DNA of 64,000 nt from Candidatus Phyllobacterium onerii (lineage in GTDB: Bacteria; Pseudomonadota; Alphaproteobacteria; Rhizobiales; Rhizobiaceae). Position numbers and translations under genes: made by a program. Positions 12,958 to 45,868 of the stretch are shown in pieces. Every line of letters starts with the position of its first letter. Positions within the stretch are counted from its first letter, which is position 1. The notes beneath the pieces are model-generated. The model made no database searches. It worked only from the letters and a program-made list of their open reading frames with translations, and was not told the origin of the DNA. The stretch covers positions 682,001-746,000 of the forward strand of contig NZ_JAQMHX010000001.1 of the NCBI RefSeq assembly GCF_028331445.1, read 5' to 3'.

Positions 12958-13193
12958 TCATGCCGCCAAGGCTGGTGTGGCTCGGTTCAGATCGATGATC
13001 TGGCGGGCGTGTCGATAGCTGGTGAAGTGATAGTCGTTGAGGCACTCATCAGGAAGTCTGCCGTTGCAGCTTTCAACACAGCCCTTCTGCATCGGTTTTC
13101 CCGGCGCGATATAGTGGCATTCGACCTGATGTCCCTGCTGCATTTCAGGATGGTATTCGAGGTCAGTTCAGTGCCATTGTCCGAGACAACCAT
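12958..13193 (-). pseudogene. Remnant of IS3-family transposase (orfB)
   Basis: On the minus strand two frames together give the end of an IS3-type DDE transposase. [11 protein letters not shown] (second Asp region) is in one frame and [16 protein letters not shown] plus [12 protein letters not shown] (Glu region) in another. The frame break between them, and the loss of both ends, show it is dead. It follows the membrane hydrolase gene directly and marks an old insertion inside the island. Confidence 0.75.
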
Positions 13194-15010: not shown

Positions 15011-15885
15011 TTGGTTACCCTCCTGTTTACGCTGCTCTTGAGCAGCTGTTTGTATGTCACTAGTCACCGCTCGTGATACCCCAAAGCCATTCTCTGCGGG
15101 CCAACTGTCTGATCCCGCAGGTTGATGTACTTTTCATCGAATGCTCAATTCATATGAGCGGAAACTTCGCTGCTGTATTCACAGGAGTAACTTTCTCATA
15201 GGAGACCCCATACCAATTCGTGGACGCTGGAGCGACGGATCTCGAGATATCACCGCTTCGGGCATTATTGGTTGCCCATAAACTTTACGAACTATCGTAC
15301 ACCGGCCTTCTGCGGCCCGCTGAGCGATTCGTCAAAGGACTCAACCACGGTTACGTCTCCACTGGCTCAAACACACAATATCGCAAGCGCCTGAGCGCGT
15401 TGAGGCATCTACGCGAAAAAAAAGATGCTATAGATGTTAACTCGACTGCGAACCGGAAGTTCGCCATGTAATAAGATCCCCAACCCTAATAACCCATCAA
15501 CTTCGATCTTCGCTTTCAAAGATATATTAGTTTTGATCGATTTGCTAACCCTTTTGGAATACTTGGCAATGATTTAACTGAAGCGTATAATTTTGATCGG
15601 GGAAAAAGTAATATCCATTTCGGCAGGGGCGAACATGGAAACCAAGCAACTATTTATCCAAAAGTGGATGGCAGCCGGTAGGGTGGGCGCTCCAGCGACG
15701 GGTTTGGTGAAAAGTGTTGCAATTTATGTTTGTGTCTATCCTCAGCTCGTGAAGGTTGATAGTGCCATAGGTACAATACCGGCCCCACGCTTTCGTTCTG
15801 GTAGCGTAAGAATGTCGGCTATAAAACTCATCGTCCCCGACGCCGCTTCCAAAACAACACGAACGCAGAGCGCGCAAGGTGAGGC
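15011..15885. other. Intergenic stretch upstream of the patatin gene
   Basis: About 870 bases without a gene I can defend. Two short frames, 15220-15471 (GTG start) and 15635-15889 (ends ATGA into the patatin start), show no known motif. The AT-rich part near 15480-15600 is a plausible place for a rightward promoter serving the patatin gene. Confidence 0.4.
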
Positions 15886-26615: not shown

Positions 26616-26628
26616 CGGAGCCGTAGAG

Positions 26629-29711: not shown

Positions 29712-32129
29712 ATGGCTGATGCGGCGACTATCCGAAAAAATACTTCGAAAAAAGCCAAAGATACGCCTTTTGAGCATTTCCGCATAAGCACCGGACTTAA
29801 GGACTTGATTGGGCGCGACCTGATCACCGACGATTTCGTTGCCGTCTTCGAGCTTGTGAAAAATGCATTTGATGCGCGGGCAAAAAAGGTCACCCTCGTC
29901 TTCGAGGAAGACTCCATCGTGATTTCAGACGATGGCAAGGGAATGCGCCGGGAGGACATTCTCAACAAGTGGCTGTTCGTGGCCTACTCCGCCAAGCGTG
30001 ATGGCACCGAGGATGCCGACTATCGCGATCGCATTGGCGAGGGACGCAGGGTGTACGCCGGGGCGAAGGGGGTCGGTCGATTTTCCTGTGATTGCCTTGG
30101 CCAAACGCTCTTGCTTTATAGCAGGGCGAGGGGGAACCAGGTCCAGATGCTTGAAGTGGATTGGCGGAAATACGAGAAGGATCCAAAGCAAGAGTTTGCC
30201 AAGGTAGGTGTGAAGCTGGGCGAGGTAAGCTTGTTTCCCCCCGTTTCGCATCATTCCCCGAAGGGCGTGGGGACCAGTCTGGTGATCGGCATGCTTCGAT
30301 CCGTGTGGGATCGCAGTAAACTGCTCGAGCTGCGTCGGGCATTGAGCAAATTGATTAATCCGTTCTCGACCAAGGCCGACAACTTCAAGATCGAGATCGT
30401 CGCGAAGGTGGAGGCGGTCGAAGACGACAGGATAAAGAAGCTCAACGACGCGCGGGAACCAGACGATCCAGCAGGATTTCTCGTTAATGGATTGATCGAG
30501 AACTCGATCTTAAGTGCTCTTGCAAAGCGGACGACAGTCATTCGCGTCAAGTCTATTGAAAACGGGAGGAGACTTGAAACCGAGCTCGAGGATCGGGGCG
30601 ACCTAGTCTACCGGATCAGGGAGGTCAATCCCTACAAGCGCTTGAAGGATGCTGGCTTTTCGTCGGACGTGTACTTCCTCAACCGGAGTGCCAAGACCAC
30701 CTTCGCTCGAAGGATGGGCGTGCGGTCGATCGACTTCGGATCCATATTTGCCTTTCGCAACGGGTTTAGGGTCGTTCCCATTGGAAACGAGGATGATGAT
30801 TTCTTCGGGCTGAACAAGCGCAAGCAACAGGGACAACGTCGGTTTCTCGGAACTCGCGAGGTCGTCGGGAAGGTGGACGTACTAGGCGTCCCAGGTTTCG
30901 ATGAAGCGACCAGCCGGGCCGGTGGCTTCATCCGGTCGAAGCACGTCGACGAGTTGATAACCGCGTTGGTGGATAAATGCATAAAGCGCCTAGAGCGCTA
31001 TGTGGTTGATATATCTTGGAAGGATGACTTTGACAAGGATGATGCAACGACCTCGCGAATGCGCCTCGACAGCAGCAGCGCGAAGATCGCCCAGCTGGTA
31101 TCTCGGCTAGCTGCAACCGACGGCGTCGAGGTTGTCGCCTTCAATCCAGACTTGGTTCGTATTGTCGACGAACGGTCGGACTCGTTTCTCGATTCGTTTC
31201 GCGCTCTGGAACTTCTCGCCGAAAAGACCGGTAGCAAAGATCTTCTTGCGAGTGTGGATCAAACGCGTGCGCGCATTGAAGCGCTTCAGGCCGCTGAGGC
31301 CGAGGCCCGGGACGCCGAGCAGCGCTCGGAAGCGAGGGCTCTCAAAGCTGAACAAGATGCAGCGACGGTTAGGTCGGAGCTGGTCGTTGCAACAGAGATG
31401 CTGGAAAGCGAACGTGGTCGAAACAGCTTTCTGATTGCAGCGGCTTCGTTGGACAAGGATACGATCCTCAACCTGCACCATCAAATTGGCATGCATGCAG
31501 CTGCTATCCAGCACAGCATCAAGCTAATGTCTGAAAAGTTGCGGCGAGCGGATCAGGTACCTAAGGAAGAGATTGCGAGCTTCCTCGACAAGGTTTCCTT
31601 CCGCAACAGCCAGATCTTAACGGCCGCGCGATTTGCAAGCCGTGGGGGGTACAAGGAGCAAGCGATCTCGCGCACTGATGATCTGGCGCAGTTCATCCAC
31701 GACTACACGGACGCGATTGGAAATGCTTGGGCGCCTACTGGAACGACGGCTAGCGTCGAGTGGCAGGGGAAGGGCTTCGAGCGGAAGTTCAAGCCGATCG
31801 AAGTTGGCATAATCATCGACAATTTGGTCTCTAATGCTGGAAAGGCAGGTGCGTCAAAGCTCCTCCTTGCTCTGTCAATTGAAAAGCGTGAAGGAAAACA
31901 ACAGCTTGTGATCGACGCGGCTGACGATGGGGCCGGTTGGGCAAAGAACCTGAAACCCCTCAACTCCATCTTCGAGATGGGCGTCACGACCGGAAAGACG
32001 GGGTCAGGCCTTGGACTCTATCATGTGAAGCAGGTCGTGGGGACCATGGGAGGAACAATCGAGGCGATGCCTGAGCCATATGATGACGAACACCCCGGTG
32101 CCCATATTCGGATTAGGTTGCCCGCATGA
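29712..32129 (+). CDS. Protein with two GHKL ATPase modules (MutL/MORC-like head, histidine-kinase-like tail)
   Basis: The N-terminal module has an N-box ELVKNAFDARAKKVTL (Asn51), G1 motif SDDGKGM (near 72-78) and G2 motif AGAKGVGRFS (near 117-126), in the HSP90/MutL/MORC arrangement. It is followed by a transducer-like region. At about 515-600 there is a coiled coil, then a LHHQIGMHAAAIQHS stretch that could be a degenerate dimerisation/phospho-acceptor helix. The tail is a second GHKL module with NLVSNAGKAG (near 702), DDGAGW and GSGLGLYHVKQ, as in histidine kinases. MutL/MORC-like ATPases are known from restriction-modification loci. ATG at 29712 follows an AGGG site, and the stop overlaps the receiver gene by ATGA. 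Confidence 0.85.
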   Translation: MADAATIRKNTSKKAKDTPFEHFRISTGLKDLIGRDLITDDFVAVFELVKNAFDARAKKVTLVFEEDSIVISDDGKGMRREDILNKWLFVAYSAKRDGTEDADYRDRIGEGRRVYAGAKGVGRFSCDCLGQTLLLYSRARGNQVQMLEVDWRKYEKDPKQEFAKVGVKLGEVSLFPPVSHHSPKGVGTSLVIGMLRSVWDRSKLLELRRALSKLINPFSTKADNFKIEIVAKVEAVEDDRIKKLNDAREPDDPAGFLVNGLIENSILSALAKRTTVIRVKSIENGRRLETELEDRGDLVYRIREVNPYKRLKDAGFSSDVYFLNRSAKTTFARRMGVRSIDFGSIFAFRNGFRVVPIGNEDDDFFGLNKRKQQGQRRFLGTREVVGKVDVLGVPGFDEATSRAGGFIRSKHVDELITALVDKCIKRLERYVVDISWKDDFDKDDATTSRMRLDSSSAKIAQLVSRLAATDGVEVVAFNPDLVRIVDERSDSFLDSFRALELLAEKTGSKDLLASVDQTRARIEALQAAEAEARDAEQRSEARALKAEQDAATVRSELVVATEMLESERGRNSFLIAAASLDKDTILNLHHQIGMHAAAIQHSIKLMSEKLRRADQVPKEEIASFLDKVSFRNSQILTAARFASRGGYKEQAISRTDDLAQFIHDYTDAIGNAWAPTGTTASVEWQGKGFERKFKPIEVGIIIDNLVSNAGKAGASKLLLALSIEKREGKQQLVIDAADDGAGWAKNLKPLNSIFEMGVTTGKTGSGLGLYHVKQVVGTMGGTIEAMPEPYDDEHPGAHIRIRLPA

Positions 32130-33070
32130 GGTTGGATTTTCGACTGCTGGTGATCGACGACCAGCCAGACGGGATTGCTGACGCGATCGAGATGCTGAGA
32201 ATGTCTTTGGAAGACAAAGGATTTCGTCTCCAGGTCGAAATCGCCGAGGATATCTCCGTAAAAGGGATCGATGCGTATTGCCGTGCGGAAGGGCGAAACA
32301 TTGATCTCGCGATCGTTGATTATAAGCTCGGCGAGGAGAGTATCGATGGGGCACTGGCGGCACAGACCGTGCGAAGCCGATTAAAGTACACTGATATCAT
32401 TTTCTACTCGACTAGCCAAAAGAAAGAGTTGGCAAAAAGAATGGCGGAAAGCCATGTCGAAGGGGTCTTTCTCGCGTCTCGCGGGAACGACTTCGACGAG
32501 GTTCTCTGGGGTGTTGCCGAGACCATCATAGGAAAAGCCGTCGATCTCAACCACATGCGTGGGATAGCCATCGCCGAGGTAGCTGAAATGGATCTCTTGA
32601 TGGAGGAGATCCTAGCTGGGGCCTATAGCTCTGGAAACGACGCCTTCGTGGCGAAGGGGCGCGATCGCCTCGCAAGCTTGATCCAAAACGAGAAGGAAAA
32701 CGTCGCCAAGCTTGAAAAGCGACTGAAGAATGCAAAGCCTGGCGACATTGTCCTGGACAACGCAATTTTCGGGTCGACTTACAAGTGGCAGGCAGTGTGC
32801 AAGCTTGCGGAGATGGTGCTGGGCAAAGCGAACGAGCTATGTCTGGTCTTCGCTGCATACGACACCGATGTTATTGCAAGGCGCAACATGCTGGCACACG
32901 CGCGGGCGGTCCTCGACGATGGGATGACGGCCTCGCTGCAGGCGATCCGACCTGGGCGGATGGACGAGGAGATTGACGAGGCCTGGATGGTCGATTTTCG
33001 CAGCCAACTTACCAGGCAACGGAATGCGTTGAATGCCATAGCGGCTGCGGTGGCGAAGCGGGCTCGCTAG
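32126..33070 (+). CDS. Receiver-domain protein, partner of the double-GHKL ATPase
   Basis: The first 125 residues are a receiver domain. It has acidic Asp11-Asp12 in LLVIDDQPDG, the likely phospho-acceptor Asp65 in LAIVDYKLGEE and the switch Ser/Thr in FYSTSQKK. The conserved Lys of receivers is not clear (VFLASRGND), so phosphorylation is unproven. The C-terminal half is helical with a long charged helix and no DNA-binding motif, so it is not a standard transcription regulator. It is translationally coupled to the GHKL gene by ATGA. With the kinase-like GHKL tail it would make a signalling pair inside a defence locus. It meets the oncoming methyltransferase gene at a shared CTAG. Confidence 0.8.
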   Translation: MRLDFRLLVIDDQPDGIADAIEMLRMSLEDKGFRLQVEIAEDISVKGIDAYCRAEGRNIDLAIVDYKLGEESIDGALAAQTVRSRLKYTDIIFYSTSQKKELAKRMAESHVEGVFLASRGNDFDEVLWGVAETIIGKAVDLNHMRGIAIAEVAEMDLLMEEILAGAYSSGNDAFVAKGRDRLASLIQNEKENVAKLEKRLKNAKPGDIVLDNAIFGSTYKWQAVCKLAEMVLGKANELCLVFAAYDTDVIARRNMLAHARAVLDDGMTASLQAIRPGRMDEEIDEAWMVDFRSQLTRQRNALNAIAAAVAKRAR

Positions 33071-34317
33071 CCGCCACCGAGCAAACCAGAAAGGTTTGCC
33101 CCGATCTGTTCGGCCAATAGAGGCGGAACAGCATTGGCAACTTGTGTGTAGCGCGGTATTTCCCGGCGCCGCGCAAGGCCACCCGTCGTGAATTTTCCCT
33201 TGAACTGGAACCAATCGGGGAATGATTGCAGTCTCGCGTTCTCTCGGACAGTAAGAGTCCTTGGTTCCTGGTAGTGCAACAAGTCATCGGGCATGCTCGT
33301 GATGGTAGGCGCCGGCGAAAGCGGATCCAGGACCCTCAAGGCCATTTTCCGCAGCCCGTGCCGTTCTCGGAGTTCTTTCGAAATGGCGCGGTTCAATCGT
33401 CCATCTTCGGCGCAGTTGCGAATAATGTCCGCAAAACGTGCCACGATTTCGGGAGCATGCTTTGCCAACCTCGTGTCGGAAAGCGTCTCTGCGTGCTCCT
33501 CGTTCATCGCTCGCTGGTATGGGGTCCTTGGACCCCTATGTGCGATAGCCAAGTACCCGCTGGTCTCCGGGCATGGAACCTTGCCAGCGACCGCGACTTC
33601 CAGATCGGACAAGGCGTCGCGTGCGGTGGTTCCTGGCATGAGCCCCCGTTTTGCGAGGAAGGCAGGCGAACCGGCACGGAGTTGGTCGAAGAACGTGGAA
33701 ACTTGACCGGACGCTTCGAGATCGCGACGAACGCCGATTAGGAAGAAACGAGGTCGCGCCTGTGGTACGCCAAAATCGCTAGCCATCAGTATCGTGTCCG
33801 CGATGATGTAGTCGACGTCGAGACGTTCCCTGAGTTCGGACGCAAAGTTGCGCCCAGCCCCGGGGAGACCGCCCCCAAAGTCGGCAGTGAATCCCTTTAC
33901 GTTCTCTATAAGGACAGCCTTCGGCATCAAATCCGACACCAACGAGAGATAGTCAAGGAACAGGCTATTTCTCGGATCGTTCACTTGCCGCCTCCCCGCG
34001 TGAGAAAAACCTTGGCATGGTGGCCCACCAGCCAGCAGATCTACTCTCCCTCGCGCGTTGTCCAGGAAGCTCGCGCATTCCTGCCTGAACGACGCGATTT
34101 CCCAGGGTTTGATCGCTACGCCTTTCGGCCAGCTTGCGATCGCGCTCGGCCCGGCACCCTCCAACAAGTTCGTGCGGTATGTCTGGAATGCATGTTGGTC
34201 CTTTTCGATCGCCATCAGGCATTCCCACCCAGCTCGCTTTAGGCCCAGGCTAAGTCCTCCACATCCGGCGAACACGTCGACGAATTTAAGTCCGTTTGCC
34301 GAGACTTTCTTGGTCAT
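33067..34317 (-). CDS. DNA (cytosine-5-)-methyltransferase (copy 1)
   Basis: A full m5C methyltransferase of 416 residues. Motif I is VDVFAGCGGLSLGL (SAM binding), motif IV LLAGGPPCQGFS has the catalytic Cys101, motif VI is AVLIENVKGF, and motifs IX-X read LTVRENARLQSFPDW and YTQVANAVPPLLA. The target-recognition region lies near 200-310. It would methylate cytosine C5 at an unknown site. Its stop shares a CTAG with the receiver gene coming from the other side. It lies on the same strand as the second methyltransferase operon but is separated from Vsr by nearly 700 bases. The two methyltransferases are clearly homologous, above all at the C-terminus. Confidence 0.92.
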   Translation of the reverse strand: MTKKVSANGLKFVDVFAGCGGLSLGLKRAGWECLMAIEKDQHAFQTYRTNLLEGAGPSAIASWPKGVAIKPWEIASFRQECASFLDNARGRVDLLAGGPPCQGFSHAGRRQVNDPRNSLFLDYLSLVSDLMPKAVLIENVKGFTADFGGGLPGAGRNFASELRERLDVDYIIADTILMASDFGVPQARPRFFLIGVRRDLEASGQVSTFFDQLRAGSPAFLAKRGLMPGTTARDALSDLEVAVAGKVPCPETSGYLAIAHRGPRTPYQRAMNEEHAETLSDTRLAKHAPEIVARFADIIRNCAEDGRLNRAISKELRERHGLRKMALRVLDPLSPAPTITSMPDDLLHYQEPRTLTVRENARLQSFPDWFQFKGKFTTGGLARRREIPRYTQVANAVPPLLAEQIGANLSGLLGGG

Positions 34318-35004
34318 CTGCCTTGCCTACTGATCCTGCATGCTCGCGGTACTGTGCAAGAGGACGGCTAATAATGTGCTATCGCTAGATGAAATAAACT
34401 GATCTCACGAATGTTGAGAGGACCATGGACCAAGCGCTTAGCAAGTTCTTCAAGGCGCTTACCGAGCAAGAACAGAAGTTCTTGCCCTATCTGGAAACCG
34501 ATAGCCTTGGCTGGTCTTGAGATGCGCGATCAACGAGCTCGACTAGCATGCCTACCAAATGTCGAGGCGCGATGACGTCGGCGAACGGCAGGAGGAAGAA
34601 TTCTACCTGCTGCGCCTTGGTGTCGCGAGATTGGTTACTGGCATCGTTAAAGCTGCCAAAGTCCCTCCCGCTATCCCCCATCTATCGTGTCGTCATCGCG
34701 AAGCACTACGCCTACTCCTTGAAGGAAGTTGCCGTCGGAGCGGATGTTGCCTACGCAAACTGGGCGCAGCTCATCAATTCAGTCAATCTCTTGAAGCAGG
34801 GTCCTTAGTCCGGTCACCGGCTGTCGGGTTTATTCGCCATACTAAGGTTGACGGAGGCGCCAAATGAACCCGCCGAGCATCTTCCCGAACCAGCAAGTTC
34901 CTGGCAGGTCTACACGCTTAAGTTCGGTGTCCTGCAGGAAGGCGCGGCGACACCTCCGAGCGATCAACCCGCGACGTCCGGACAGGAGGACTGACCGAGA
35001 AGGA
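34318..35004. other. Gap between methyltransferase 1 and Vsr, with a very short ORF
   Basis: Nearly 700 bases without a recognised gene. A 31-codon frame on the plus strand, 34425-34520, starts MDQALSKFFKALTEQEQKF after a GAGAGG site and then stops. It could be a leader or a truncated gene. The same frame stays open from 34521 to 34808 but shows no known motif. A leftward promoter for methyltransferase 1 is expected here. Confidence 0.4.
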
Positions 35005-35457
35005 TTACTCACAAGTAACGCCAGCAAACCCTGGGGGGGATTGCTTCAAAAGGCTGGCGAATTGCATTGCCGTGGCCCCGGCTTTCGATGGAGTATCAAC
35101 TTCGCATTCCCATGCGACGATCACGCACCATCCTAATTCCTCAAGTTGGCTTGTTACCCGCTCGTCCCGTGCGACGTTGCGCGAGAACTTGTCGGTCCAG
35201 AATTCCGTGTTGGACTTGGGCGTCGTGGCGACCTTGCACCCTGGATGCCGGTGCCAGAAGCAGCCATGGACGAAGATCGCAGTTTTGTACTTGGTTAGTA
35301 CGACGTCGGGCTTGCCGGGAAGCTTGGTGTCGCGTACTCGAAACCGAAATCCAAGGCGGTGTAGGGCTTGCCTCAATGCGATCTCGGGCTTCGTATCCCG
35401 TGACCGGATGCGCGACATTCGCTCGGATCGCTGGGCGGGCGTTAGCGTGTCGACCAT
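35005..35457 (-). CDS. vsr: Vsr-type very-short-patch endonuclease
   Basis: A 150-residue protein with every Vsr landmark. RMSRIRSRDTKPE has Glu25, GKPDVVL has Asp51, and VHGCFWHRHPGC has His64 and His69, the same numbering as the E. coli enzyme. Cys66, His71 and Cys74 could help bind the structural zinc. Vsr nicks next to T:G mismatches made by deamination of 5-methylcytosine, so it repairs damage made by a partner m5C methyltransferase. It is the last gene of a five-gene operon with a cytosine methyltransferase at its head, starting 6 bases after the stop of the large ATPase gene. It could instead act as a nickase in restriction, which some loci suggest. Confidence 0.93.
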   Translation of the reverse strand: MVDTLTPAQRSERMSRIRSRDTKPEIALRQALHRLGFRFRVRDTKLPGKPDVVLTKYKTAIFVHGCFWHRHPGCKVATTPKSNTEFWTDKFSRNVARDERVTSQLEELGWCVIVAWECEVDTPSKAGATAMQFASLLKQSPPGFAGVTCE

Positions 35458-35463
35458 GGCGTG

Positions 35464-38400
35464 TCACTCTTGCTCGGTCTCGCGAGCCTGGAGTTCGAAG
35501 AACGGCAGGCCCCTGACGATTTCGCCTGGCACGTCGAACGACTTGTACAGGCACTGGTGTACCTTCAGGGATTTCACGCGTTCTGCCAAGTCCGCGGCGC
35601 CTCCCGTCAGCCCCAGCGCCGACAACTCTGCCGGCGTCACGTTCGGTACCTTGTGGATGAACCATGTGAGCAGCGGCTCCCGGTAATCGGTGGCATTGAC
35701 CTTGAAATGACGTAGGTACTGCGAGGCAAGTATCACTCCCGTGCCGAACTCGCGGCCCTGTAGTAGCAGTTTGCGCAACACGTCGAACTCGTAGCGCATG
35801 ATGTTGTCGGCTTCGTCGACCAGGAGATACGAGTCGATTGCGCGAAGCTGCGGCTCCTCGCCTATGAACGGACGCTTTGGCACGCGAAGCATGTTTTCGT
35901 AGAACATGTTGAGCATGATGGCCACTAGCATGTTCTTGCTGCGATCGTCCTGGCCCAGGGCGTCCAGCGACACCACGACCACCCCGTCGAGGAATTGGTC
36001 GAATGGCACGGCGTCCCCGGCATCGGGCACGAAGATTTCCATGTCGATGAGGTCGTCGATGATGGCCATCGGCGAGTCCGACTTTCCGTCGAGCAATTCT
36101 GCGTAGGCCGCGTGGACGTCGCGCAGCGTAGGGGGCTTGCCAGCGGGCGACGACTCGTAGGCCGTGCGCACGGCACGCTTCAACTTGTCGCGCTGAACCG
36201 GGCCAATCCCGGTGTAGATCTTATCGAGGACATCCGCGAAGAACCGGAACCGGTCTAGCCATGGCGCTGCCACGTCGCCGAGCCCACTAGTGTCGAATAA
36301 GTTCAGTGGCAGGCGATGCGGTTTCACGACGCGCGCACCGGTAGCCTCGACGAAATCCGGGCTGCTGTAGTCGCGCTTGTAGTCGAAGATCAGGAACCGC
36401 GGCCGGATCGCCCGGTTGTCGGCGGACGAGCTGGAGATTTGCAGGATGAGGGATTTCAGGAGCTGCGTCTTGCCGGTGCCAAGGTCGCCGACCACGCCCA
36501 TGTTCAACTGGTTTAGCCTGGTATCCGAGACGTTCAGTCCGATCTCGCCCGGCCTGAAGCTATCGATCGTCGTCCCGATCGAAAGCACGACGCCACTAGA
36601 AGTGTGGCTCGATGGATGCTCGCTCCCGGGGACGAGACTTGGTGATGCGGGTGGCGTTTCCAGGTCGGTAGGCAGCCAAGGCGCAATCGCGACGCCCTCT
36701 TCTATCGCCTCCGTCGCAGCCATGGCCTCGTTGGCAAGCCGCGGTATCGGTGCTGGCAGTGGATCGGCGAGATCGGGGAGGAAACCCCATTGGCCGACCC
36801 TTTCCCGGACTCCCGCGTAGAACGCGGCAGGGTCGCCAGCCACGACGAGGCCCGCGTCGCCATTCCCGATGGTAACGGTCTCGTCGAACCCGTCCTCGTC
36901 GCGGTCGCGCACCCCGCTGCGCGGGCTGTCGTCGACGATGATGAGGCGCCCGCGCTGGTCGACCGAGACGCAGGGCAACGGGCCCAGGATCGCGGCCGCG
37001 ATGCGTTCGTGGATTGCCGACCATTGTGCTTCCCGCCCGGCGACGTCGGGATGCTGGCTGTAGACCCTCATGCCGAATCCAATGATCGACAGCAGCAGGT
37101 GCTGGAAGCCAAGTGCCCACGCGACCGGCTGGCCCTCGTGGGGCAGCAAATTGGAAAGAAGCCGCGAGAAGGTCTTGGCTTGTTCGAGCGCATCGCCGAC
37201 CTCCGAGGCGGGGAAGGTCGAGCCTAGCCTGCACTTCACCTCGACGGGCGTGAGATGGATCTTCGCTTGCTCGCCCGACAACCGTGCCCCTATTACCAGC
37301 AAGTCCGGCCGGGAGAGGGACGTTTCCTTCCGGTCCTTGCCAAGCGACCGTGCCAGGTCGGCGAAATAGCCACGAAACGGATCGACTGGCACGATTATGC
37401 AAACATTGACGTCCTCGCCCTCTCCGTCGATCACGGGAAGCAGGCTTCCCTCCAGGCTTGGCTGGCGAAAGCGGTCTTGTAGCAACCTGACAGCCACGAA
37501 AAGACCGAGATCGCCAGTTGCCCCATGGTTGTCGCTCGAAAGGCCGCGGATCGTCGGGATGCCCCTGCGGGCGATCTCGAGAAGGAGGCCTTGGACGCTG
37601 TCACCGCTGATGCCTGCGCAAGACGGCAGTCGGGCCAAGACCTTGGAGAGGGCTTCTCGATCGGCCTGTTTGACCTTGGAGAGAAGGTAGTAGCCGTTTG
37701 TGTCGCCCGCACGATGGGAGTAGGACGGCATGTCGTAGTCCCAAAGGTAGGCATTTTCCAGCCACCCTCCAAGGAAGCACGCGGGATCGATCGCCGACGA
37801 CGAGACGGCTACGAACTCAGCGTTGCGCGCCTCCAGCATGTCGCGCACGACATTCACGTTCGGGGCGAAGCGCAACCCGGTTCGCCGCTCGCCTAGGTTC
37901 TCCATGGTGGCAATGCAGGCGCCAATCTTGTCTGCTAGCACGGACCCCGATGCGTTGGTGGGGAGGGACTGCCGCGTCTCGCTCAAGAACGCTCCGGGGA
38001 GCTGGCGGCGTATACGATGCCGAAGCAACCCGCCATGCCCAAGGGGTGACCGGCCGGCGACGGTTGCGGCACTGGGCTCCGACATGTCCAGCTGGGCAAT
38101 GATCCCAAGGTCCGGGGTTGCCCGGGCGGGTTGCCCATCGAACCACCGGACGCTGTTCCTCGTGTCCTCCGACAGGTTGGCGATGGTTGCGTCGTCTGGC
38201 CGGACCCCGACGGGCCGGTGGTCGTAGATCTCGACAAGGCGCGGGCCGGCGGCCTGCCGAGGCGTCCGGCCATTGCCGTCGCGATACCTGTTCGAGCACC
38301 ATTCGACCAGACCCTCATTGCATGCGTCAGTCGTCCCGCCGGCGCTTTCCACGACGAGGCCGACAACTGGTTTTGCAGCGAGCAGCCCGGATACGTCGTC

Positions 38401-40920
38401 CAATGCCCTTCCCACCTGCGCCGCGCTGAAACCGACCGAGATTCCACCGACGGAGATGCCAAAGGCTTCGCCGAAGGGCGCGACCTTCGATCGGCTTGGC
38501 AACCGCCCAAGGCGATCGCCGTTCCAGAGGACGGACCAGTAGTCGGTGCCATTCTCAACCGCCAGGTAATCCACCTGCTCTATCCCGCCGGGGGAGCGAA
38601 GCGACATCGTGAGAACGTCGGGTACGCAATCTGGATCAAGCACACTGGCGGCGGGACACGGCTTCCCGAGCGTGTCTGCCTCGAGCAAGACCCCTTGCGC
38701 CAGCGCCTGCCATGCGATGCGCAACGGGTGCAATGGCGAGAGTATGACCGCGTCGGGTATGCGCGCCAACGTCCGGCCATCGTCCTCCAAGGTTGTGACG
38801 ATGGCCACGTCCACCCAGCACGCGACGTCGGGGGAGCCAGCAAGCCAGGCCGCGTAGGAATCAACGTACATTTCCACGAGCGAACGAAATTCCTCGTCGC
38901 CCCGGAGCCACTTGCCGAGCTCCGCTGCCTCTACAAGGCCGGTCTGGTCCCCCGTGCCTCGAATGCGGGCGGCGATCTGCTTGCGTGCCTCGATGAAGCC
39001 AACGGGCGGCTCGAACTCCGTGGCGTCTGGCCGTGGATCGTGCAGGAACCGCCCACTGGAAAAGACGGGACCAGTACCAACTCCCCATGGTTTCTGCACC
39101 CATGAGTCGACGTAGTCATTTGCCAGGACCACCGGAAGGAAAGACTTGGCGATGGCGTCTTCAGCGAGTATCCAGTCCTGGAGGCTGGAGCATCGCGCGC
39201 TCCTATTGAGCTGCACCACGGGCTTGGCGTCCGATGGATCGACGAGGCGACGATTGACGCGGATCAAACGCTCGAATTCGCTCCTGCATCCTTGCTCGAC
39301 CACGTCCTCTACCGAAATGAACAATCGGCAAGTTTCCTGGTCCATGGATCCATCCGCTGCGTCGCGTTGGAAGCCAATGTCGAGCTGGTAGTTGGTCTCG
39401 GCCTCGACTTCGATCTGGTGATGGCCTGACCTCACGTGTCGAACCGGCAATTGGTCGACGGCATCCATGCGATCCTGCACATCGTCGCCAGTACCCTCCG
39501 CGAATGGGTCGACGCGGACGCCCGGGGAGGTGAAGACCAGGATTTCGTAGCGTCCGCCCCCGGGCACGACCATACTACTCTCGAATCCCGGGGACCCCTT
39601 CTGCCTGCGCGGCGGCTTGCGGGGAGGTGTAAGCTTGCGCGCCAGCCGGCATGCCACGAAAATTCCTGGTTGCCAGGTGGAAAGCGAGATTACCTTGATG
39701 GTGCCTGGCTTAAAGCCAATGGCTGAAGCCGCGTATCGCATCGGGGACTTGTGCTGGGGCAGCGCTTCGTCCACCAGGGTGGCGTCCCCATCCCCGATGG
39801 TCACCTGGCCGATCTCGTTGCCCTTGGGGCCGCGCTCGATCGAAAGGGTGCTGCCAGTGGCATCGGCGCCGACCGCCTCGAATGCCAACGTGACGCCGCT
39901 CTCGACGACGATGGGCATTCCCTTGCCAAGGTGGACCAGCGGATTCGAGCAACTGATGCGGATGTCGCCTTGTGCGCCGGCATCCTCGGTCAGCAGTTCA
40001 GTCCATTTTTCCGCCGTCAGCGCTGTCCACCAGCTTGGTACGATGGGAAGCTCGAGGCCATTGCCGGGTGCGTAGTAGGTCGCGGTGGCGCGCTCGAACG
40101 CGGTCGGTAGGTCGCATACACTCCGCAGGTGCGCGAGGAACGCGTCGAGGTGCTCTAGGTCCTCGTGGTCCGCATTGTCCTTGGCGCGCCGGATACCAGG
40201 CCCGAAGCCATCGGACATTGCGTCGGCGACCTTCTCGAGGACGGTAAGTTGCTCGCGCGCAGCCAGGCTACCATCACCCAGCGGTGGCATGCCACATGCG
40301 AGGCTTATCTTGGCCCCGGGCGCGAGGCCAGTCTTGGAACCGGCTGTCTCGAACAACCGGGAAAGGACGCGCCAGGCATTGGTGCGTTGGGTGCGCTCGG
40401 GGTCGAGCTCGTCCGCGGCCGTGGCCGCACGTCCCACCAGGATACGGGCCTCGTCTCGCTGGGCTTGGTCGCTGAGGCCACATCGAGCAATGCCTTCCCG
40501 CACCAGGTCCTGGACGAATTCGTCTGCCCACCAGTCCTCGAAAGGGACGTTGCCGCCGTTGTTGGATGCTGCCACGCCGAATTCGTCGGTCGTCGACGTC
40601 ACCGAGCGCATGCTGTGCTGGCCAGGCGGCACCAACGCCAGGAAGGTTGGTTGCGATGGCGAGTTGCGAAGGTTGAGGAGGTGCGTGTCGTCGCACCGCC
40701 CCGAGGCACCGGCCGGGGGGGGTGCCTCGCCAGGCGCCAGGGCCGGAAGTAGCAAGAGGACCGGTACGAGCGCCGACGATCCCGCCAGCATGTCGAAGAC
40801 GCGCGACATGACCTCCGGGGGCGGGCCGTGGAAAATCAGGCGGACCTCGGCATTCCCGGCCGAGGCTTGCTTCAGCTTGTCATGGACCAAGTCGTGGATG
40901 GTCGATGCGAGATGGTTCAT
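35464..40920 (-). CDS. DptH-like giant protein: PD-(D/E)XK-like motif plus HerA/FtsK ATPase
   Basis: A 1,818-residue protein. Near residues 1195-1230 SRPDLLVIGARL is followed by IHLTPVEVKCRLG, giving the D...ExK signature of a PD-(D/E)XK nuclease. The C-terminal third is a HerA/FtsK-type ATPase: Walker A GDLGTGKTQLLKS (near 1481), IFDYKRDYSS, and Walker B SYLLVDEADNIMRY (near 1700) with LLLQGREFGTGVILASQY. Gene order and size (about 700, 500 and 1,800 residues) follow dptF-dptG-dptH of phosphorothioate-linked restriction, but no dnd genes are near. A translocating ATPase with a nuclease on one chain would suit a restriction enzyme. ATGA overlap with the upstream gene. The N-terminal 1,150 residues are unassigned. 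Confidence 0.75.
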   Translation of the reverse strand: MNHLASTIHDLVHDKLKQASAGNAEVRLIFHGPPPEVMSRVFDMLAGSSALVPVLLLLPALAPGEAPPPAGASGRCDDTHLLNLRNSPSQPTFLALVPPGQHSMRSVTSTTDEFGVAASNNGGNVPFEDWWADEFVQDLVREGIARCGLSDQAQRDEARILVGRAATAADELDPERTQRTNAWRVLSRLFETAGSKTGLAPGAKISLACGMPPLGDGSLAAREQLTVLEKVADAMSDGFGPGIRRAKDNADHEDLEHLDAFLAHLRSVCDLPTAFERATATYYAPGNGLELPIVPSWWTALTAEKWTELLTEDAGAQGDIRISCSNPLVHLGKGMPIVVESGVTLAFEAVGADATGSTLSIERGPKGNEIGQVTIGDGDATLVDEALPQHKSPMRYAASAIGFKPGTIKVISLSTWQPGIFVACRLARKLTPPRKPPRRQKGSPGFESSMVVPGGGRYEILVFTSPGVRVDPFAEGTGDDVQDRMDAVDQLPVRHVRSGHHQIEVEAETNYQLDIGFQRDAADGSMDQETCRLFISVEDVVEQGCRSEFERLIRVNRRLVDPSDAKPVVQLNRSARCSSLQDWILAEDAIAKSFLPVVLANDYVDSWVQKPWGVGTGPVFSSGRFLHDPRPDATEFEPPVGFIEARKQIAARIRGTGDQTGLVEAAELGKWLRGDEEFRSLVEMYVDSYAAWLAGSPDVACWVDVAIVTTLEDDGRTLARIPDAVILSPLHPLRIAWQALAQGVLLEADTLGKPCPAASVLDPDCVPDVLTMSLRSPGGIEQVDYLAVENGTDYWSVLWNGDRLGRLPSRSKVAPFGEAFGISVGGISVGFSAAQVGRALDDVSGLLAAKPVVGLVVESAGGTTDACNEGLVEWCSNRYRDGNGRTPRQAAGPRLVEIYDHRPVGVRPDDATIANLSEDTRNSVRWFDGQPARATPDLGIIAQLDMSEPSAATVAGRSPLGHGGLLRHRIRRQLPGAFLSETRQSLPTNASGSVLADKIGACIATMENLGERRTGLRFAPNVNVVRDMLEARNAEFVAVSSSAIDPACFLGGWLENAYLWDYDMPSYSHRAGDTNGYYLLSKVKQADREALSKVLARLPSCAGISGDSVQGLLLEIARRGIPTIRGLSSDNHGATGDLGLFVAVRLLQDRFRQPSLEGSLLPVIDGEGEDVNVCIIVPVDPFRGYFADLARSLGKDRKETSLSRPDLLVIGARLSGEQAKIHLTPVEVKCRLGSTFPASEVGDALEQAKTFSRLLSNLLPHEGQPVAWALGFQHLLLSIIGFGMRVYSQHPDVAGREAQWSAIHERIAAAILGPLPCVSVDQRGRLIIVDDSPRSGVRDRDEDGFDETVTIGNGDAGLVVAGDPAAFYAGVRERVGQWGFLPDLADPLPAPIPRLANEAMAATEAIEEGVAIAPWLPTDLETPPASPSLVPGSEHPSSHTSSGVVLSIGTTIDSFRPGEIGLNVSDTRLNQLNMGVVGDLGTGKTQLLKSLILQISSSSADNRAIRPRFLIFDYKRDYSSPDFVEATGARVVKPHRLPLNLFDTSGLGDVAAPWLDRFRFFADVLDKIYTGIGPVQRDKLKRAVRTAYESSPAGKPPTLRDVHAAYAELLDGKSDSPMAIIDDLIDMEIFVPDAGDAVPFDQFLDGVVVVSLDALGQDDRSKNMLVAIMLNMFYENMLRVPKRPFIGEEPQLRAIDSYLLVDEADNIMRYEFDVLRKLLLQGREFGTGVILASQYLRHFKVNATDYREPLLTWFIHKVPNVTPAELSALGLTGGAADLAERVKSLKVHQCLYKSFDVPGEIVRGLPFFELQARETEQE

Positions 40921-42428
40921 GCAATGACCTGCTTCACGGTTGGGAAGGGAGGCACGAGCAGCATGCCGCTTTCCGCGTCGGGGCTATCGAGGACCAGACC
41001 CAGCATCCGCAGCTGGTGGCCAAGGTCGTTGGTGGCAATGTCGCGATGGTCCACGGAGATCCCATAGGCCGATAGGTGCTGCGAGAGCCGGCGGACCGAT
41101 CGAGGCCCGCTCGCCCCTGCGAGCGAGCAATGCACCAACGCAAGGATCGCCACCGGCCCCATGCCAACTATCCAGGGAGCACCGTTCCCGGCGCTGCGCT
41201 TCCTTAGCACGAAGCCTTGGTCGTATCCCCTCAGGATCGGGCTGGCTGCCTGTCGCTGCCCGAGGACGTGGCGAGCGAATTCCATGATGTTCGAGCCGAT
41301 CCCCTTCTTGCATAGGAGCGTCCGGGTCTCGCGCTCGGAAACCTCCGCGAGCATGTCCCCCAGGCCCATTGTCGCCAAGGCAGCGGCGTTGCGGCGTACG
41401 CGGTCGCAAAGATCGAGGACTTCTCGGGCGGACGAAAGGCCATGCCCTTCCTCCTGGACCATGTCTAGCGCCCAAAGGGTCGCGTTCAGCCCCAGGCGAG
41501 CTTGCAGGAAGGCGGATGCCCTGTCCTTCATGCCTGGTAGTGCGCGATCGCCATAGGAAAGGAATTGGAAGGGCCGGGGGAAGATCAACGCACGTGCTTC
41601 GTCAATGTCCTTGGGACCGGCGCCATCGAGCGCGCTTCTTACGCAACTCCACATTCTCGCGTGGAGGTCGCAAGTCCACGTGACGTGCGCGACGGCCCCA
41701 AGCCTCAATACTGACTCCAGCAAGCTTGTCCATTGCCTTCTGGTCATCGCGGACTTTGCGGCGATCACCGAGCCGAGGTCCCGGGCAAATCGCCTTGCTG
41801 GATAGGCTAGGTTCCTTTGGTCGTCCATGTCGAGGGTGAACTGCTCGTTCGCCGAAAGCATGCCCCACTTGGGGCTGGGCGCCCACGCCTCTATTTCCGC
41901 TTGGAGGAAGCGGGCAAAGATATCGTCGTCGTCGACTACGGCAAGCGCCTCGAAGAGCGCCTGCCAGGTTGCCTCGGCCTCCGGCAGGTTGCGAGACCCA
42001 AGCCATATCATCCGCCTCACCAAGGCGCCAGCAGGCCATGAGTTGGCGCTAAGCCGCGCGGAGCCCGAGAACGCCGCCGCTTTGGGCACCAGCGGCGTGA
42101 CCTGTACGAAACGCTTCGAGGATTGGTTCGGAAGCTTGGGGCTTTCGAGCACTGAATGCAGTAACATGTGGAAGGCGTCGGGGTCGAGGACCGCGCCCTC
42201 CGGCTTCCGGTGCCGGTCGCGATACCATTGCACGTCCTTGTCTATCTCCCGCCCGCGCTGGGGAACCGTTCGCTCGGTCGCCCCCTCGAGGCCTACGTGG
42301 CGATACAATGACGAAAGCAGGACCTCAGAGCTTGCGTATTCGGGGGCGGGGGACATGGCCAGGCCACTATCCTGGTAGGCAGGATGCGACGTGCGCCAAG
42401 GTTCCTCCCTGAATCTCGCCAGGCTCAT
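40917..42428 (-). CDS. DptG-like middle protein of the ATPase operon
   Basis: A 503-residue soluble, mostly helical protein with no catalytic motif. The C-terminus has SVRRLSQHLSAYGISVDHRD and LGLVLDSPDAESGMLLVPPF. This resembles the winged-helix-like tail of DptG, which ends in a similar S-D-S-G-D segment, and may bind DNA or protein. The resemblance is weak, and the operon position between a DptF-like and a DptH-like gene carries most of the argument. It overlaps both neighbours by ATGA, so the three are made in fixed ratio and probably form one complex. Confidence 0.55.
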   Translation of the reverse strand: MSLARFREEPWRTSHPAYQDSGLAMSPAPEYASSEVLLSSLYRHVGLEGATERTVPQRGREIDKDVQWYRDRHRKPEGAVLDPDAFHMLLHSVLESPKLPNQSSKRFVQVTPLVPKAAAFSGSARLSANSWPAGALVRRMIWLGSRNLPEAEATWQALFEALAVVDDDDIFARFLQAEIEAWAPSPKWGMLSANEQFTLDMDDQRNLAYPARRFARDLGSVIAAKSAMTRRQWTSLLESVLRLGAVAHVTWTCDLHARMWSCVRSALDGAGPKDIDEARALIFPRPFQFLSYGDRALPGMKDRASAFLQARLGLNATLWALDMVQEEGHGLSSAREVLDLCDRVRRNAAALATMGLGDMLAEVSERETRTLLCKKGIGSNIMEFARHVLGQRQAASPILRGYDQGFVLRKRSAGNGAPWIVGMGPVAILALVHCSLAGASGPRSVRRLSQHLSAYGISVDHRDIATNDLGHQLRMLGLVLDSPDAESGMLLVPPFPTVKQVIA

Positions 42429-44533
42429 CGGGTCCCTCCGTCCTTGCGGATGCCAAAACCGAACCTTCGCTGCACCACCGAACTATCGGCCGATCCTATC
42501 TGGATTCGCGCCCGCTCCAGGAGCTGGCGGTCCCTCACGATGGGTCCGGCGAGCCGGGCGCGCGTCGTGTCGAGGAGGGCAAGGACTGTCCGAGGGAGGG
42601 ACGCAATGGACATGCCTTCCTCTAGCTCCTTCACGGCCTTGAAAAGGTCGTAGGTGAGGGCAATCGGTTGGCTCGACCGGCCATCTCCTACCTTGAGGAA
42701 CGGGATTGGCGACGCCGGCCTCCCGCTTGTGTTGGCGTGGAGGGGGCGGACGGACCGCGCGGGCACGACGAGCATGGCGCGGCGGGCCACTGGAGGCAGC
42801 GGCTGGCCAAACGTCGTCGTGAGCGAGATCTCGAAATCCTGGTTCCGGTTCAACAGCAGTTCTACCTCGTGCGCAATTTCGTAGAGGCCTTCGCCCTCGC
42901 CATCCTCGATGACTTTTTGGAACTCGGAGAGAATGGGTGCATCAAGGGCCGTGGCAGTCCTCGTGCCCAGCGACCTGCGCACTAATCGGCAGGTAAAGTC
43001 GCGCATGAACCTCTGGAGGTTCGTCGCGGACAAGGGGCGCCTTCGGCGCACACCTGGGCTTGATAGTTCGGCATCGAGCCTTGCGAGCCGATCGATGAGC
43101 TCGACCTCCAGTCGCGTCAAGACTTGTAGCTTGCGCACGTAGTCAAGTCCCTCGAGGACGGACCTGCTGAACCGGACATCAACTTCGCGCAACGCAAAGC
43201 GCGTGTTGCGAGACACTTGGACCTGCGTGTCGGGCACAGCCAACGCGGGGTCGAGCAACTCGGCGAAACCCTCCAGCACGTCGCCTATCATGCTGGGCAA
43301 GTATGGCGCCCGTCGCGAGGAGAGGAACCAATATAGCCCCATCGCGGTATTGTCGTCGTCCAGCCCAAGTTCCTTAATGTCGCGCAGCAGCGACGGCCCC
43401 GCGTCGCGTTCCCATCGATGGAAAAGCGCGTGCTGGTATTGCGCGGCGACCAGTTGGAATATCGAGGACGAGGTGTCACGTGACGGCTTCCCGCCACGGC
43501 GAGCCGTTTCGTCGAGGCCTGCCAGCCTTGCGGCCCATCCACAAGGATCAAGGCCCGCGTCGCGGGGCGACACCCTGTGGCCAGCTAGCAGGTAGGAAAC
43601 CAGCGAGAACAAGTCCCTGAAGCTCCACCGCTTTCCACTTGCGACCTCGTACCATCGCAGCATCTGCAGAAACGACCCTTCCTCGCGCTCGCGGGCAAGC
43701 CGTTCGCGGCTCCCGCAGAACGGGCACGACGGCCCGGCCGAACAGCTGCCCGCGGGGAGCCACCGGCTTTCCTCCAGTGCATGGCGTAGCAACGAACGCG
43801 CGGGAGCCTCGCCGCAGCGGGTCGGTGCCAGGAGCAGCGATTCCGCATCCATTGGCCACGCCGCGACAGTCGGGAACAAATCGAGCGGCCAGCACGAGGG
43901 TGCGTCGGGCGCGAGGCTGACTGCGCGGGTGATCGCTTCCAGGAGCCGGCGCGACTGGTCCGAGCCTCGATCGATCGCCTCAATGAGAGCGTCGTCGAGG
44001 ACACCCCTGTTGACACAGAACAGATATGCCTCGGTCTGCGGCGCCGATTGCATCGCCTCCAGCTCGTCGAGCAACAACTGGGCGGCGGGCCGGCCAGTGG
44101 CGCCCAAAACAGCGGAAGCGTCCTGGACGATGGAGATCGCGAGCTGGCGCTTGGGAATTCCAAGTGAACCCGCATCGACCCGTACCAACCGGGGGACGAA
44201 GCCATCTCCCGCCGGCAGGAACGACCCCGCAAGTGCTCGAGTGAGCTGCTGGCTTGCGCCGAGCGCGCCGTCCAGCCAGCCAATGGTTGATTCGATGGCC
44301 TCCGTCTTGCCGTTGCCGGGACCGCCAACAAGCATCAGGATCCGCGGCGCGCTTCCTGGCGCCTCGACCATCTTCTTGGCCCAATCCTCGAGCTTGTGGA
44401 GCAGATTGGTCTCGAAGACGTTCTCGCCCGGTCGACCGCTTCCTTCGTCAAAAAGGCGTCGAACCCCGCCCGATCTATTTCCCGACCAGTTGACCAACCG
44501 TGATGGATAAGTCGCCTTCGCTTCCAACTCCAC
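42425..44533 (-). CDS. DptF-like P-loop ATPase
   Basis: A 702-residue ATPase with Walker A MLVGGPGNGKTEAIES near residues 67-82 and a possible Walker B QLLLDELEAM near 150. Near 265 four Cys/His-type positions in GSCSAGPSCPFCGSRE look like a small zinc knuckle. The rest is helical. The start is GTG at 44533 with GAGGCGGG just upstream and 12 bases after the methyltransferase stop. ATGA overlap with the DptG-like gene. The DptF comparison rests on gene order, size and a single ATPase domain, and the pairwise identity has not been measured. It may load or trigger the large HerA-type ATPase. Confidence 0.65.
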   Translation of the reverse strand: MELEAKATYPSRLVNWSGNRSGGVRRLFDEGSGRPGENVFETNLLHKLEDWAKKMVEAPGSAPRILMLVGGPGNGKTEAIESTIGWLDGALGASQQLTRALAGSFLPAGDGFVPRLVRVDAGSLGIPKRQLAISIVQDASAVLGATGRPAAQLLLDELEAMQSAPQTEAYLFCVNRGVLDDALIEAIDRGSDQSRRLLEAITRAVSLAPDAPSCWPLDLFPTVAAWPMDAESLLLAPTRCGEAPARSLLRHALEESRWLPAGSCSAGPSCPFCGSRERLAREREEGSFLQMLRWYEVASGKRWSFRDLFSLVSYLLAGHRVSPRDAGLDPCGWAARLAGLDETARRGGKPSRDTSSSIFQLVAAQYQHALFHRWERDAGPSLLRDIKELGLDDDNTAMGLYWFLSSRRAPYLPSMIGDVLEGFAELLDPALAVPDTQVQVSRNTRFALREVDVRFSRSVLEGLDYVRKLQVLTRLEVELIDRLARLDAELSSPGVRRRRPLSATNLQRFMRDFTCRLVRRSLGTRTATALDAPILSEFQKVIEDGEGEGLYEIAHEVELLLNRNQDFEISLTTTFGQPLPPVARRAMLVVPARSVRPLHANTSGRPASPIPFLKVGDGRSSQPIALTYDLFKAVKELEEGMSIASLPRTVLALLDTTRARLAGPIVRDRQLLERARIQIGSADSSVVQRRFGFGIRKDGGTR

Positions 44534-44545
44534 GATCGTCCCGCC

Positions 44546-45868
44546 TCAACCCGTTGCCAGCGCAGGTCCCGCAAGCTGCTTGCTGGCGTCGCCCTGGGCG
44601 GCCGAAACCTCGTCTAGCAGGCGGGCGAGGGAATTGCCGATCGCACGGGCAAGGAGAGGTGGCACGGCGTTGCCGACCTGGGTATATCGCGGGCATTCCT
44701 TGGTCCGTCGTTTGCCGCCGGTGGTATATTTCCCCTTGAAGGCGAACCAATCGGGGAAGGACTGCAGCCTTGCATATTCGCGCACCGTCAAGATCCGGGG
44801 CTCTACGTAGTGCAGGATGTCGTCGGGTAGTGTAGTAACCGTCGGCGCGGGCTCGCTACCAGACATCGGGTAGATGCGGTGCTTCTTCAAGCCGTAGGTC
44901 TTCCGGCTGGCGTCGTCCATCCGGACGCCCTTGCGGCACTCCGACAGGATCTTGCTAAAGCGCCCTCGTACCTCGTCCGTGTGGCGAGCAAGTCTCATGC
45001 TGTCCATCGAGCCTTCATGGCCGTGGTGCATCAACTCCTGGTAGGCGGTCTTGGGTCCACCGTAGCTCCCCTCCATGAAACGCTTCGGCGATTCTGGATC
45101 AATGCAATCGACCAAGGGGCGGCTAGCTGTCTCTAGGTCGGAGATCGCATCGGATGCCGTTACCACCGGTCCCAGCCCAAGGAACTCCAATTGCTCGACC
45201 CTCTCCTCCTCGAGCAGCTTGAATGCCCGCAGGATGCCACCATCCAACCACTTGCAAAGATCCTTCCGCACCCCGATCGCGATCAAGCGCGATCGCTTTT
45301 GCGGCACGCCGAACTCGGAGGAGTTAACCAGCATCGCATCGACATGGTAGCCGGCGGCCGCCAGGCTCTCGACAAGCTTGTCGTAGAACGAAACCTTACG
45401 GCCCGCCGGGTCCAAGGGCTGGAGGTCGACAACGTTGCGACGGGCATGCGCGACACGCATGCCGGGGACGTTCTCGATGACGAGAGCCCGCGGCTGGATG
45501 GCCTCGACCATCTCCACGTACCTCTTGAACAGAAGGTTACGAGGGTCGTCCTCGTTGCGCCGCCCGGCGAAGCTAAAGCCCTGGCACGGTGGTCCGCCGG
45601 CGAGCACGTCGATCGTCCCGCGTAGTTCCACCAGGTCCTGCCGGTGGAGCTCCAGCACCTCCTCTATGTCCCAGTCCTTCTTCTCGAGCCAGTCTGGCCA
45701 ATCGAAGTGGGTGGACGCGCCCGGCCTGTCGAGGAGGTTCGCCGCGAAGGTCCTGAAAGCCATCGCGTCGCGCTCGATCGCGAACCGTCCCCTGAAGCCT
45801 GCGAGCGCCAGCCCCAACGAGAGACCACCGCACCCTGAGAACAAATCGGCGAAAACGTATTTTTTCAT
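44546..45868 (-). CDS. DNA (cytosine-5-)-methyltransferase (copy 2), head of Dpt-like operon
   Basis: An m5C methyltransferase of 440 residues: motif I ADLFSGCGGLSLGLALAG, motif IV DVLAGGPPCQGFSFAGRR (catalytic Cys near 95), motif VI LVIENVPGMRV and motif X YTQVGNAVPPLLARAIG. I start at the ATG at 45868 (MKKYVFADLF); an in-frame TTG four codons earlier is possible. It leads the operon that continues with the DptF-, DptG- and DptH-like genes and Vsr, so its mark is the likely self/non-self signal for that module. The operon DNA is visibly richer in G and C than the blocks on either side. Confidence 0.92.
   Translation of the reverse strand: MKKYVFADLFSGCGGLSLGLALAGFRGRFAIERDAMAFRTFAANLLDRPGASTHFDWPDWLEKKDWDIEEVLELHRQDLVELRGTIDVLAGGPPCQGFSFAGRRNEDDPRNLLFKRYVEMVEAIQPRALVIENVPGMRVAHARRNVVDLQPLDPAGRKVSFYDKLVESLAAAGYHVDAMLVNSSEFGVPQKRSRLIAIGVRKDLCKWLDGGILRAFKLLEEERVEQLEFLGLGPVVTASDAISDLETASRPLVDCIDPESPKRFMEGSYGGPKTAYQELMHHGHEGSMDSMRLARHTDEVRGRFSKILSECRKGVRMDDASRKTYGLKKHRIYPMSGSEPAPTVTTLPDDILHYVEPRILTVREYARLQSFPDWFAFKGKYTTGGKRRTKECPRYTQVGNAVPPLLARAIGNSLARLLDEVSAAQGDASKQLAGPALATG

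Follow-up and report, generated by a model that had tools for sequence, protein, structure and literature searches.

The genes of the restriction complex DptFGH, or DndFGH, are known from the vicinity of dnd genes, which supply a phosphorothioate mark on DNA, and both the way in which the complex recognizes self and its need for any mark are debated (PMC10853773; PMC12707154; here and below, statements taken from these two papers and from PMC2292703 and PMC12907096 refer to the sections of them drawn on). Salmonella cells that keep dptFGH but have lost the modification genes show SOS induction, and no single deletion of dndF, dndG or dndH fully abolished restriction (PMC12707154). Many DndFGH sets have been reported without dnd genes (PMC10853773, section 12), so that the presence of dnd genes is itself disputed as a feature of DndFGH. 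The idea of 5-methylcytosine (m5C) standing in for phosphorothioate is also met in the CxC ABC ATPase-DndE systems, which are accompanied by cytosine methylases (PMC10853773); unlike the case described here, those systems concern a DndD/CxC-DndE core, the sections of that paper considered link no methylase to DndFGH, and the word Vsr is absent from its text. Here we describe an operon, MT1-F-G-H-Vsr, in a 64,000-nucleotide stretch of DNA from Candidatus Phyllobacterium onerii (NZ_JAQMHX010000001.1, positions 682,001 to 746,000; hereafter the window), in which a DptFGH-like gene set is joined to an m5C methyltransferase (MT1) and a Vsr mismatch endonuclease. Judging from sequence, we think it moderately probable that this is a Dpt/DndFGH-type complex paired with m5C instead of phosphorothioate as the self mark. 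Literature searches aimed at this operon among open-licence PMC papers brought up, as judged by titles and abstract openings, no description of F-G-H with an m5C methyltransferase and Vsr.

All five genes lie on the minus strand (Table 1) and are closely packed, as the original prediction had described, with spacings of 12 (MT1-F), -4 (F-G), -4 (G-H) and 6 bases (H-Vsr); its placing of a methyltransferase at the head of the operon and of Vsr at the end was confirmed by Pfam matches, and the arrangement recurs elsewhere. The 4-base overlap is exact between F and G in all 16 loci measured and between G and H in 14 of the 16 (loci are designated L, and genomes G, followed by a number). The recurring gene order and the conserved overlaps argue that the operon is more than chance, and it is real. 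Because the G+C content of MT1-F-G-H (0.636) lies above that of both flanks (0.54), these genes were probably imported. With DptFGH/DndFGH they share the gene order, the overlapping genes, a P-loop protein F in the position of DptF and a protein H whose nuclease and HerA-type ATPase are colinear with those of DptH; they differ in that an m5C methyltransferase and, mostly, Vsr stand in place of dnd genes and in that F and G fall outside the curated DptF and DptG profiles tried.

Table 1. Features of the operon and its neighbourhood (window coordinates unless a locus is named; aa, amino acids)
Feature	Coordinates	Strand	Basis
MT1, DNA cytosine-5 methyltransferase, 440 aa	44546..45868	(-)	Pfam DNA_methylase E 2e-54; first gene of operon
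F, P-loop protein, 702 aa; probable distant DptF relative	42425..44533	(-)	hhalign against canonical DptF
Walker A of F, GGPGNGKT, residues 70-77	44303..44326	(-)	motif
G, 503 aa	40917..42428	(-)	dptG position
H, 1818 aa, DptH/DndH-like, with nuclease and translocase-type ATPase domains	35464..40920	(-)	PADLOC, PDB, hhalign
S-P-L-H-P block of H, about residues 675-748	38677..38898	(-)	colinear with DptH by hhalign
Predicted nuclease core of H, D1206...E1227-x-K1229	37234..37305	(-)	motif, hhalign with DptH
HerA/FtsK-type ATPase domain of H, about residues 1435-1810	35491..36618	(-)	PDB match, hhalign, motifs
Vsr mismatch endonuclease	35005..35457	(-)	Pfam Vsr E 2e-32; last gene of operon
MT2, second METHYLTRANSFERASE, m5C methyltransferase	33067..34317	(-)	Pfam DNA_methylase E 1e-55
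P0007, receiver-like protein	32126..33070	(+)	Response_reg E 1e-5, below Pfam cut-off
P0008, two GHKL ATPase domains	29712..32129	(+)	HATPase_c_3 E 4e-19, HATPase_c E 6e-18
Damaged methyltransferase regions of sister operons	L009 8564-9967; L010 8503-9967

By its sequence, H is a relative of DptH/DndH. It matches the PADLOC DndH model (expectation value, E, 2e-66; residues 1472-1810) and the solved ATPase part of DptH (PDB 7es4, E 1e-53), and its ATPase carries a Walker A motif, GDLGTGKT, at residue 1478 and a Walker B region, LLVDEADN, at 1699. When a profile of eight H relatives was compared with a profile of four canonical DptH proteins by hhalign, three colinear places emerged: the ATPase (P 1e-36), the predicted nuclease core and the S-P-L-H-P block around residue 730. 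The nuclease core scored 44.1, with 17.7 as the highest score in 20 column shuffles, and the S-P-L-H-P block 41.3, with 16.2 as the highest in as many; off-register pairs of blocks gave P of at least 0.099. All 19 of the H proteins examined have the D...ExK nuclease residues, which a pattern detected in 17 and reading in L035 and L064, and all 19 have the Walker motifs; H is cut in L011 and L032 and split in L036. Residues 1-300 and 800-1060 of H, compared with a view to the N-terminal part of DndH (inactive helicase-like domain, helix-turn-helix, beta-sandwiches) and its inactive methylase, gave nothing above shuffles. A pattern search of H for the catalytic motif of adenine methylases turned up no intact copy, in line with what has been published on DndH (PMC10853773, section 21). 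In L036, a Pseudoalteromonas plasmid, the N-terminal part of H forms a separate small gene (17657-18151), and H can thus be split there.

F is probably a distant, colinear relative of DptF, the likeness being limited to two short blocks: against six canonical DptF proteins, the P-loop block scored 37.6 in hhalign (best of 20 column shuffles 21.0) and a C-terminal block 23.0 (best shuffle 13.3). With 702 amino acids it is compared with 529-536 in four of the six canonical proteins, the one of L039 having 766 and that of L040 having been read in part. Its Walker A motif and a cysteine cluster, C-x5-CPFC at residues 264-273, are kept in 21 of 21 F proteins, and a V/I-N-R-G motif is found in the same number (20 by pattern, L064 by reading). 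Judged by eye, the N-R-G behind a hydrophobic strand recalls the Walker B asparagine of DptF, and the cysteine cluster recalls its zinc insert (for both DptF features see PMC10853773, section 20). The PADLOC DndF model gave no match to F, TIGR03238 gave none at the locus, and nothing convincing came up for F or G when PADLOC, Pfam, NCBIfam, PHROGs and PDB sequences were searched. G is Dpt-like by position only. In profile comparison, then, the labels dptF-dptG-dptH of the original prediction held well for H and weakly, through the two colinear blocks, for F, and found no support for G, in which no relation was detected; the module is Dpt-like surely through H and probably through F.

Searches with F or G yielded the F-G-H set in 20 other loci, with F identity down to 29% (L036). 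These comprise 12 genomes (L002-L013), two viral-listed contigs (L031, L032), four plasmid records (L033-L036) and two genomes from a later G profile (L064, L066); all were located through F or G and never through the methyltransferase, the last two after the methyltransferase pattern had already been seen, and L061 was dropped as the same contig as L031. The carriers, by their record names, include Rhizobiales, Sphingomonadales, Caulobacterales and Gammaproteobacteria, some records being ones that we take to belong to these orders. The module is rare, since besides the genome of the window G profiles match 1/384, 1/397 and 1/368 sampled genomes; the first of these, a doubtful match of 57 residues in G566 (E 9.8e-4), was treated as noise and left out of the count of loci. 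E. coli genomes gave no F-G DNA match, and annotated phages gave only a 41-residue fragment on a record of 4.3 kilobases (kb).

In all 21 loci, the window included and the very divergent ones too, an m5C methyltransferase adjoins F-G-H. In 19 of them it lies upstream of F, and in the other two it comes after H, on the opposite strand in L007 and on the same strand in L036. The gap between methyltransferase and F, measured in 14 loci, is 3-44 bases; it is wider in L011, L064 and L066, and the methyltransferase of L066 is an open frame of 554 aa whose match falls into two pieces. A methyltransferase profile matched none of seven canonical dptFGH loci (L026, L027 and L037-L041, with L027 truncated by the end of its contig and L041 covering 16 kb), nor did it match L028 (weak DptF match, E 1.5e-8, 7.3 kb contig) or L029 (no dptFGH), which stand outside the seven. 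As this profile was built from most of the positive loci, its positives there arise by construction; the tblastn results, L064 and L066 are independent of it. Across 12 other genomes, all 14 matches to the methyltransferase family at E 1e-20 fall at the operon's locus, counting one MT2 relative of the neighbouring cassette (G001) and two pieces of a broken gene (G009). Vsr follows H in 13 of the 19 loci that cover the place; it was not seen in L007, L009, L010, L036, L064 and L066, while L011 and L032 are cut there, and as Vsr and methyltransferase matches below 50-60 bits were not counted, a very divergent Vsr could be missed. The annotation of the Sinorhizobium fredii and Rhizobium leguminosarum plasmids reads in the same order: DNA cytosine methyltransferase, hypothetical, hypothetical, ATP-binding protein, vsr. 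The recognition region of the methyltransferase was considered as a guide to its target site; there being no reference of known site, none is claimed.

How might such an operon work? As a member of its family, MT1 would methylate a sequence in host DNA, and F (with its P-loop), G and H would act jointly on invading DNA that lacks the mark, G being by its position the probable DNA-contacting subunit and H a nuclease fused to a HerA-type DNA translocase. The make-up of H and the precedent of DndFGH suggest that F-G-H would move along unmarked DNA and nick or cut it, and Vsr, like others of its family, would repair T:G mismatches left by deamination of 5-methylcytosine, lowering the cost of the mark; in Caulobacter, a Vsr-like protein is also reported to make cells dependent on their m5C methyltransferase (PMC12907096). 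The division of labour, with MT1 marking the host and F-G-H attacking unmarked DNA, would be analogous to that implied by SOS induction through dptFGH in Salmonella (PMC12707154). A natural Dpt-like machine whose partner is a simple m5C methyltransferase, with a mark that can be mapped, opens the debate over self recognition to direct testing.

Several observations weigh against m5C as the self mark of a Dpt-like complex. G gave no signal above shuffled controls in hhalign against DptG, the triple winged helix-turn-helix subunit (full-length P 0.3). The AlphaFold models of F and G are poor, with a mean predicted local distance difference test (pLDDT) of 57.5 (alignment A1) and 59.7 (alignment A2), respectively. 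The N-terminal P-loop part of the F model comes near AAA+ proteins (RdrA, Z 8.5, root-mean-square deviation 3.8 over 136 residues, tied with clamp-loader chains at about Z 8), a likeness that could simply reflect a widespread arrangement; the best structural match of G reaches only Z 4.2. No DptF, DptG or SspB is among the 50 structures listed for each model, an absence that is no evidence of a different fold. A recognition block of H varying with the class of the methyltransferase was sought and discarded: when the identity of L012 and of L013 to the window was followed along H, no block diverged with the change of class. The correlation between distances of methyltransferase and F (Mantel r 0.79, none of 5000 permutations as high, n=17), which speaks for the pairing of the two, may reflect shared descent only. 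The absence of dnd genes is by itself not special and weighs less, because the canonical locus L026 also has no PADLOC dnd match in the four neighbouring open reading frames (ORFs) scanned; the canonical L027 has DndB, DndC and DndD-like genes, and the annotation places dnd genes in the vicinity of L037, L038, L039 and L041, L040 being unannotated. In addition, G003, the home of L004, has a dnd-like locus on another contig, with DndC, a DndA-like gene, two DndD/PbeC-like genes and a HerA protein. Finally, two sister operons, L009 and L010 (a metagenome bin), carry differing methyltransferase lesions beside open F-G-H, with no Vsr seen. They are 96.3% identical in F, 96.4% in G and 97.5% in H; in the L009 methyltransferase the first conserved motif is missing from the three forward frames read, while the L010 gene has a frameshift at a later point. 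The mark may be dispensable, its supply may fall to another methyltransferase, F-G-H may be silent in these operons, or the lesions may be assembly errors; as they stand, the two operons speak against an absolute need for the methyltransferase.

The intact F-G-H beside a damaged methyltransferase in these two operons is also what would be expected if F-G-H were a standalone counter-invader machine without a self mark, the methyltransferase and Vsr being linked to it but functionally separate, for example as a means of stabilising the cassette. Rakesh et al. (PMC10853773, section 25) argue that DndFGH acts in just this way, alone and needing no modification module. Such a separation is at odds with a methyltransferase that stands beside F-G-H in every locus, so closely before F wherever the distance was measured, and in none of the canonical loci; we consider it unlikely on the whole, yet deserving of serious weight.

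A second m5C methyltransferase, MT2, had been noticed beside the operon and described as joined to the module; its identity and place stand, but it is not part of this operon. MT2 converges on a pair of genes at 29712-33070 that encode a double-GHKL ATPase (P0008) and a receiver-like protein (P0007), and it belongs to this adjacent, paraMORC-like cassette and not to the F-G-H operon. The N-terminus of P0008 resembles the BbrUII/HgiDII family (E 3e-21, 75 bits, the cut-off of the model being 550). MORC/paraMORC restriction-modification neighbourhoods with cytosine methylases and Vsr were described in 2008 (PMC2292703); they share these two components with our operon and have GHKL genes like P0008, but their effector is the GHKL ATPase and not F-G-H. 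The MT2-GHKL-receiver trio recurs beside the operon in the genome of L002 (L067) with 83-89% identity. A search with the GHKL protein at E 1e-40 over 376 genomes gave four besides its own (L083-L086). In 4/4 the GHKL gene has a same-family m5C methyltransferase as its neighbour, in 3/4 a receiver-like gene and in 2/4 Vsr, and no F, G or H lies in the stretch examined (L083 and L086 are cut by contig ends). A GHKL ATPase gene next to a cytosine methyltransferase, a MORC/paraMORC feature to which Vsr is often added, occurs in the window, L067 and L083-L086, and a relative of P0007 lies beside the GHKL gene in L064, L067, L084, L085 and L086. The notion of MT2 as a second guard of the F-G-H operon was dropped, as the cassette occurs elsewhere without F-G-H.

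Might F-G-H and the GHKL/receiver pair then be two effectors of one larger m5C system? This wider reading is compatible with m5C as the self mark of F-G-H. It is favoured by L064, where methyltransferase, F, G, H, GHKL and receiver genes follow one another on one strand (4035-18266), two effector modules behind one methyltransferase, and by L003, where Vsr is followed by a GHKL relative and the 18 kb beyond yielded no second methyltransferase. Nevertheless, the GHKL gene lies near F-G-H in only 4 of the 21 loci (the window, L002, L003 and L064; sequence further downstream was examined for 12 of the 20 other loci), and the four other genomes have it with a methyltransferase in the absence of F-G-H, so that a single larger system appears distinctly unlikely to us. 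In an unrooted methyltransferase tree, some nodes of which are weakly supported, partners of F-G-H and partners of GHKL are interleaved, as if one m5C methyltransferase family had been combined with different effectors. In a bolder reading, which we hold somewhat less likely than not, a conserved translocase-nuclease machine would have changed the mark to which it responds: F-G-H would react to missing m5C as its Dpt relatives do to missing phosphorothioate, and one methyltransferase family, often with Vsr, would serve two unrelated effectors, F-G-H and the double-GHKL/receiver pair, in L064 within one gene run. The natural union of a Dpt-like set with an m5C methyltransferase also points to a modular exchange of marks and restriction machines.

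Two further explanations fare worse. F-G-H could be a modification-dependent, type IV-like system that attacks foreign modified DNA, with MT1 making a competing or decoy mark; an m5C methyltransferase as neighbour would fit this arrangement too, but Pfam and PADLOC show no known modified-base reader in F, G or H, large parts of which match nothing, and we regard it as very unlikely. A continued dependence on phosphorothioate from another source in the cell appears highly improbable to us, DndC (TIGR03183) being above cut-off in only one of 15 genomes, G003, on a contig other than that of the operon, and DndD in none of 13, whereas the window's own 6.0 Mb genome has no match to the DndC or DndD profile at E 1e-3. 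The latter result upholds the original statement that no dnd genes are seen. Among the remaining 14 genomes G004 has a weak DndC match below cut-off; two DndD matches just below cut-off are both in G003. The carriers counted here are genomes, as distinct from the plasmid and viral records L031-L036.

Other multi-gene defence systems were compared through PADLOC, in which the ten window proteins P0001-P0010 were searched. DISARM is a multi-gene restriction system with an m5C methyltransferase. Both MT1 and MT2 match DrmMII models, among others, in the matches listed, which for the two methyltransferases are the best 25 of 64 and the best 25 of 62. No DISARM helicase or other Drm subunit, and no PglZ or BrxC of BREX, is among the matches listed for these ten proteins, the rest of the genome not having been searched; within that scope the absence of DISARM helicase, PglZ and BREX genes, as first proposed, is borne out.

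Some neighbouring genes deserve mention. In L034 the operon is flanked by two uncharacterised genes, of 458 aa (9017-10390) and 582 aa (21603-23348), neither with a Pfam or PADLOC match; relatives at about 88-91% are present in L003 and L004 for the former and in L033 for the latter. In the window, the gene at 47943-49100, near the operon, strongly matches the phage defence protein PD-T7-5 (PADLOC, E 4e-128), and that at 50562-51905 matches a predicted pPIWI-associating nuclease (Pfam, E 2e-19). Further away, at 20661-28707, a caspase-domain protein with VMAP-like parts, a MoxR-like AAA protein, a large protein with receiver and TPR matches and an nSTAND1 nucleoside triphosphatase (NTPase) are encoded in a row, which is likely another conflict system.

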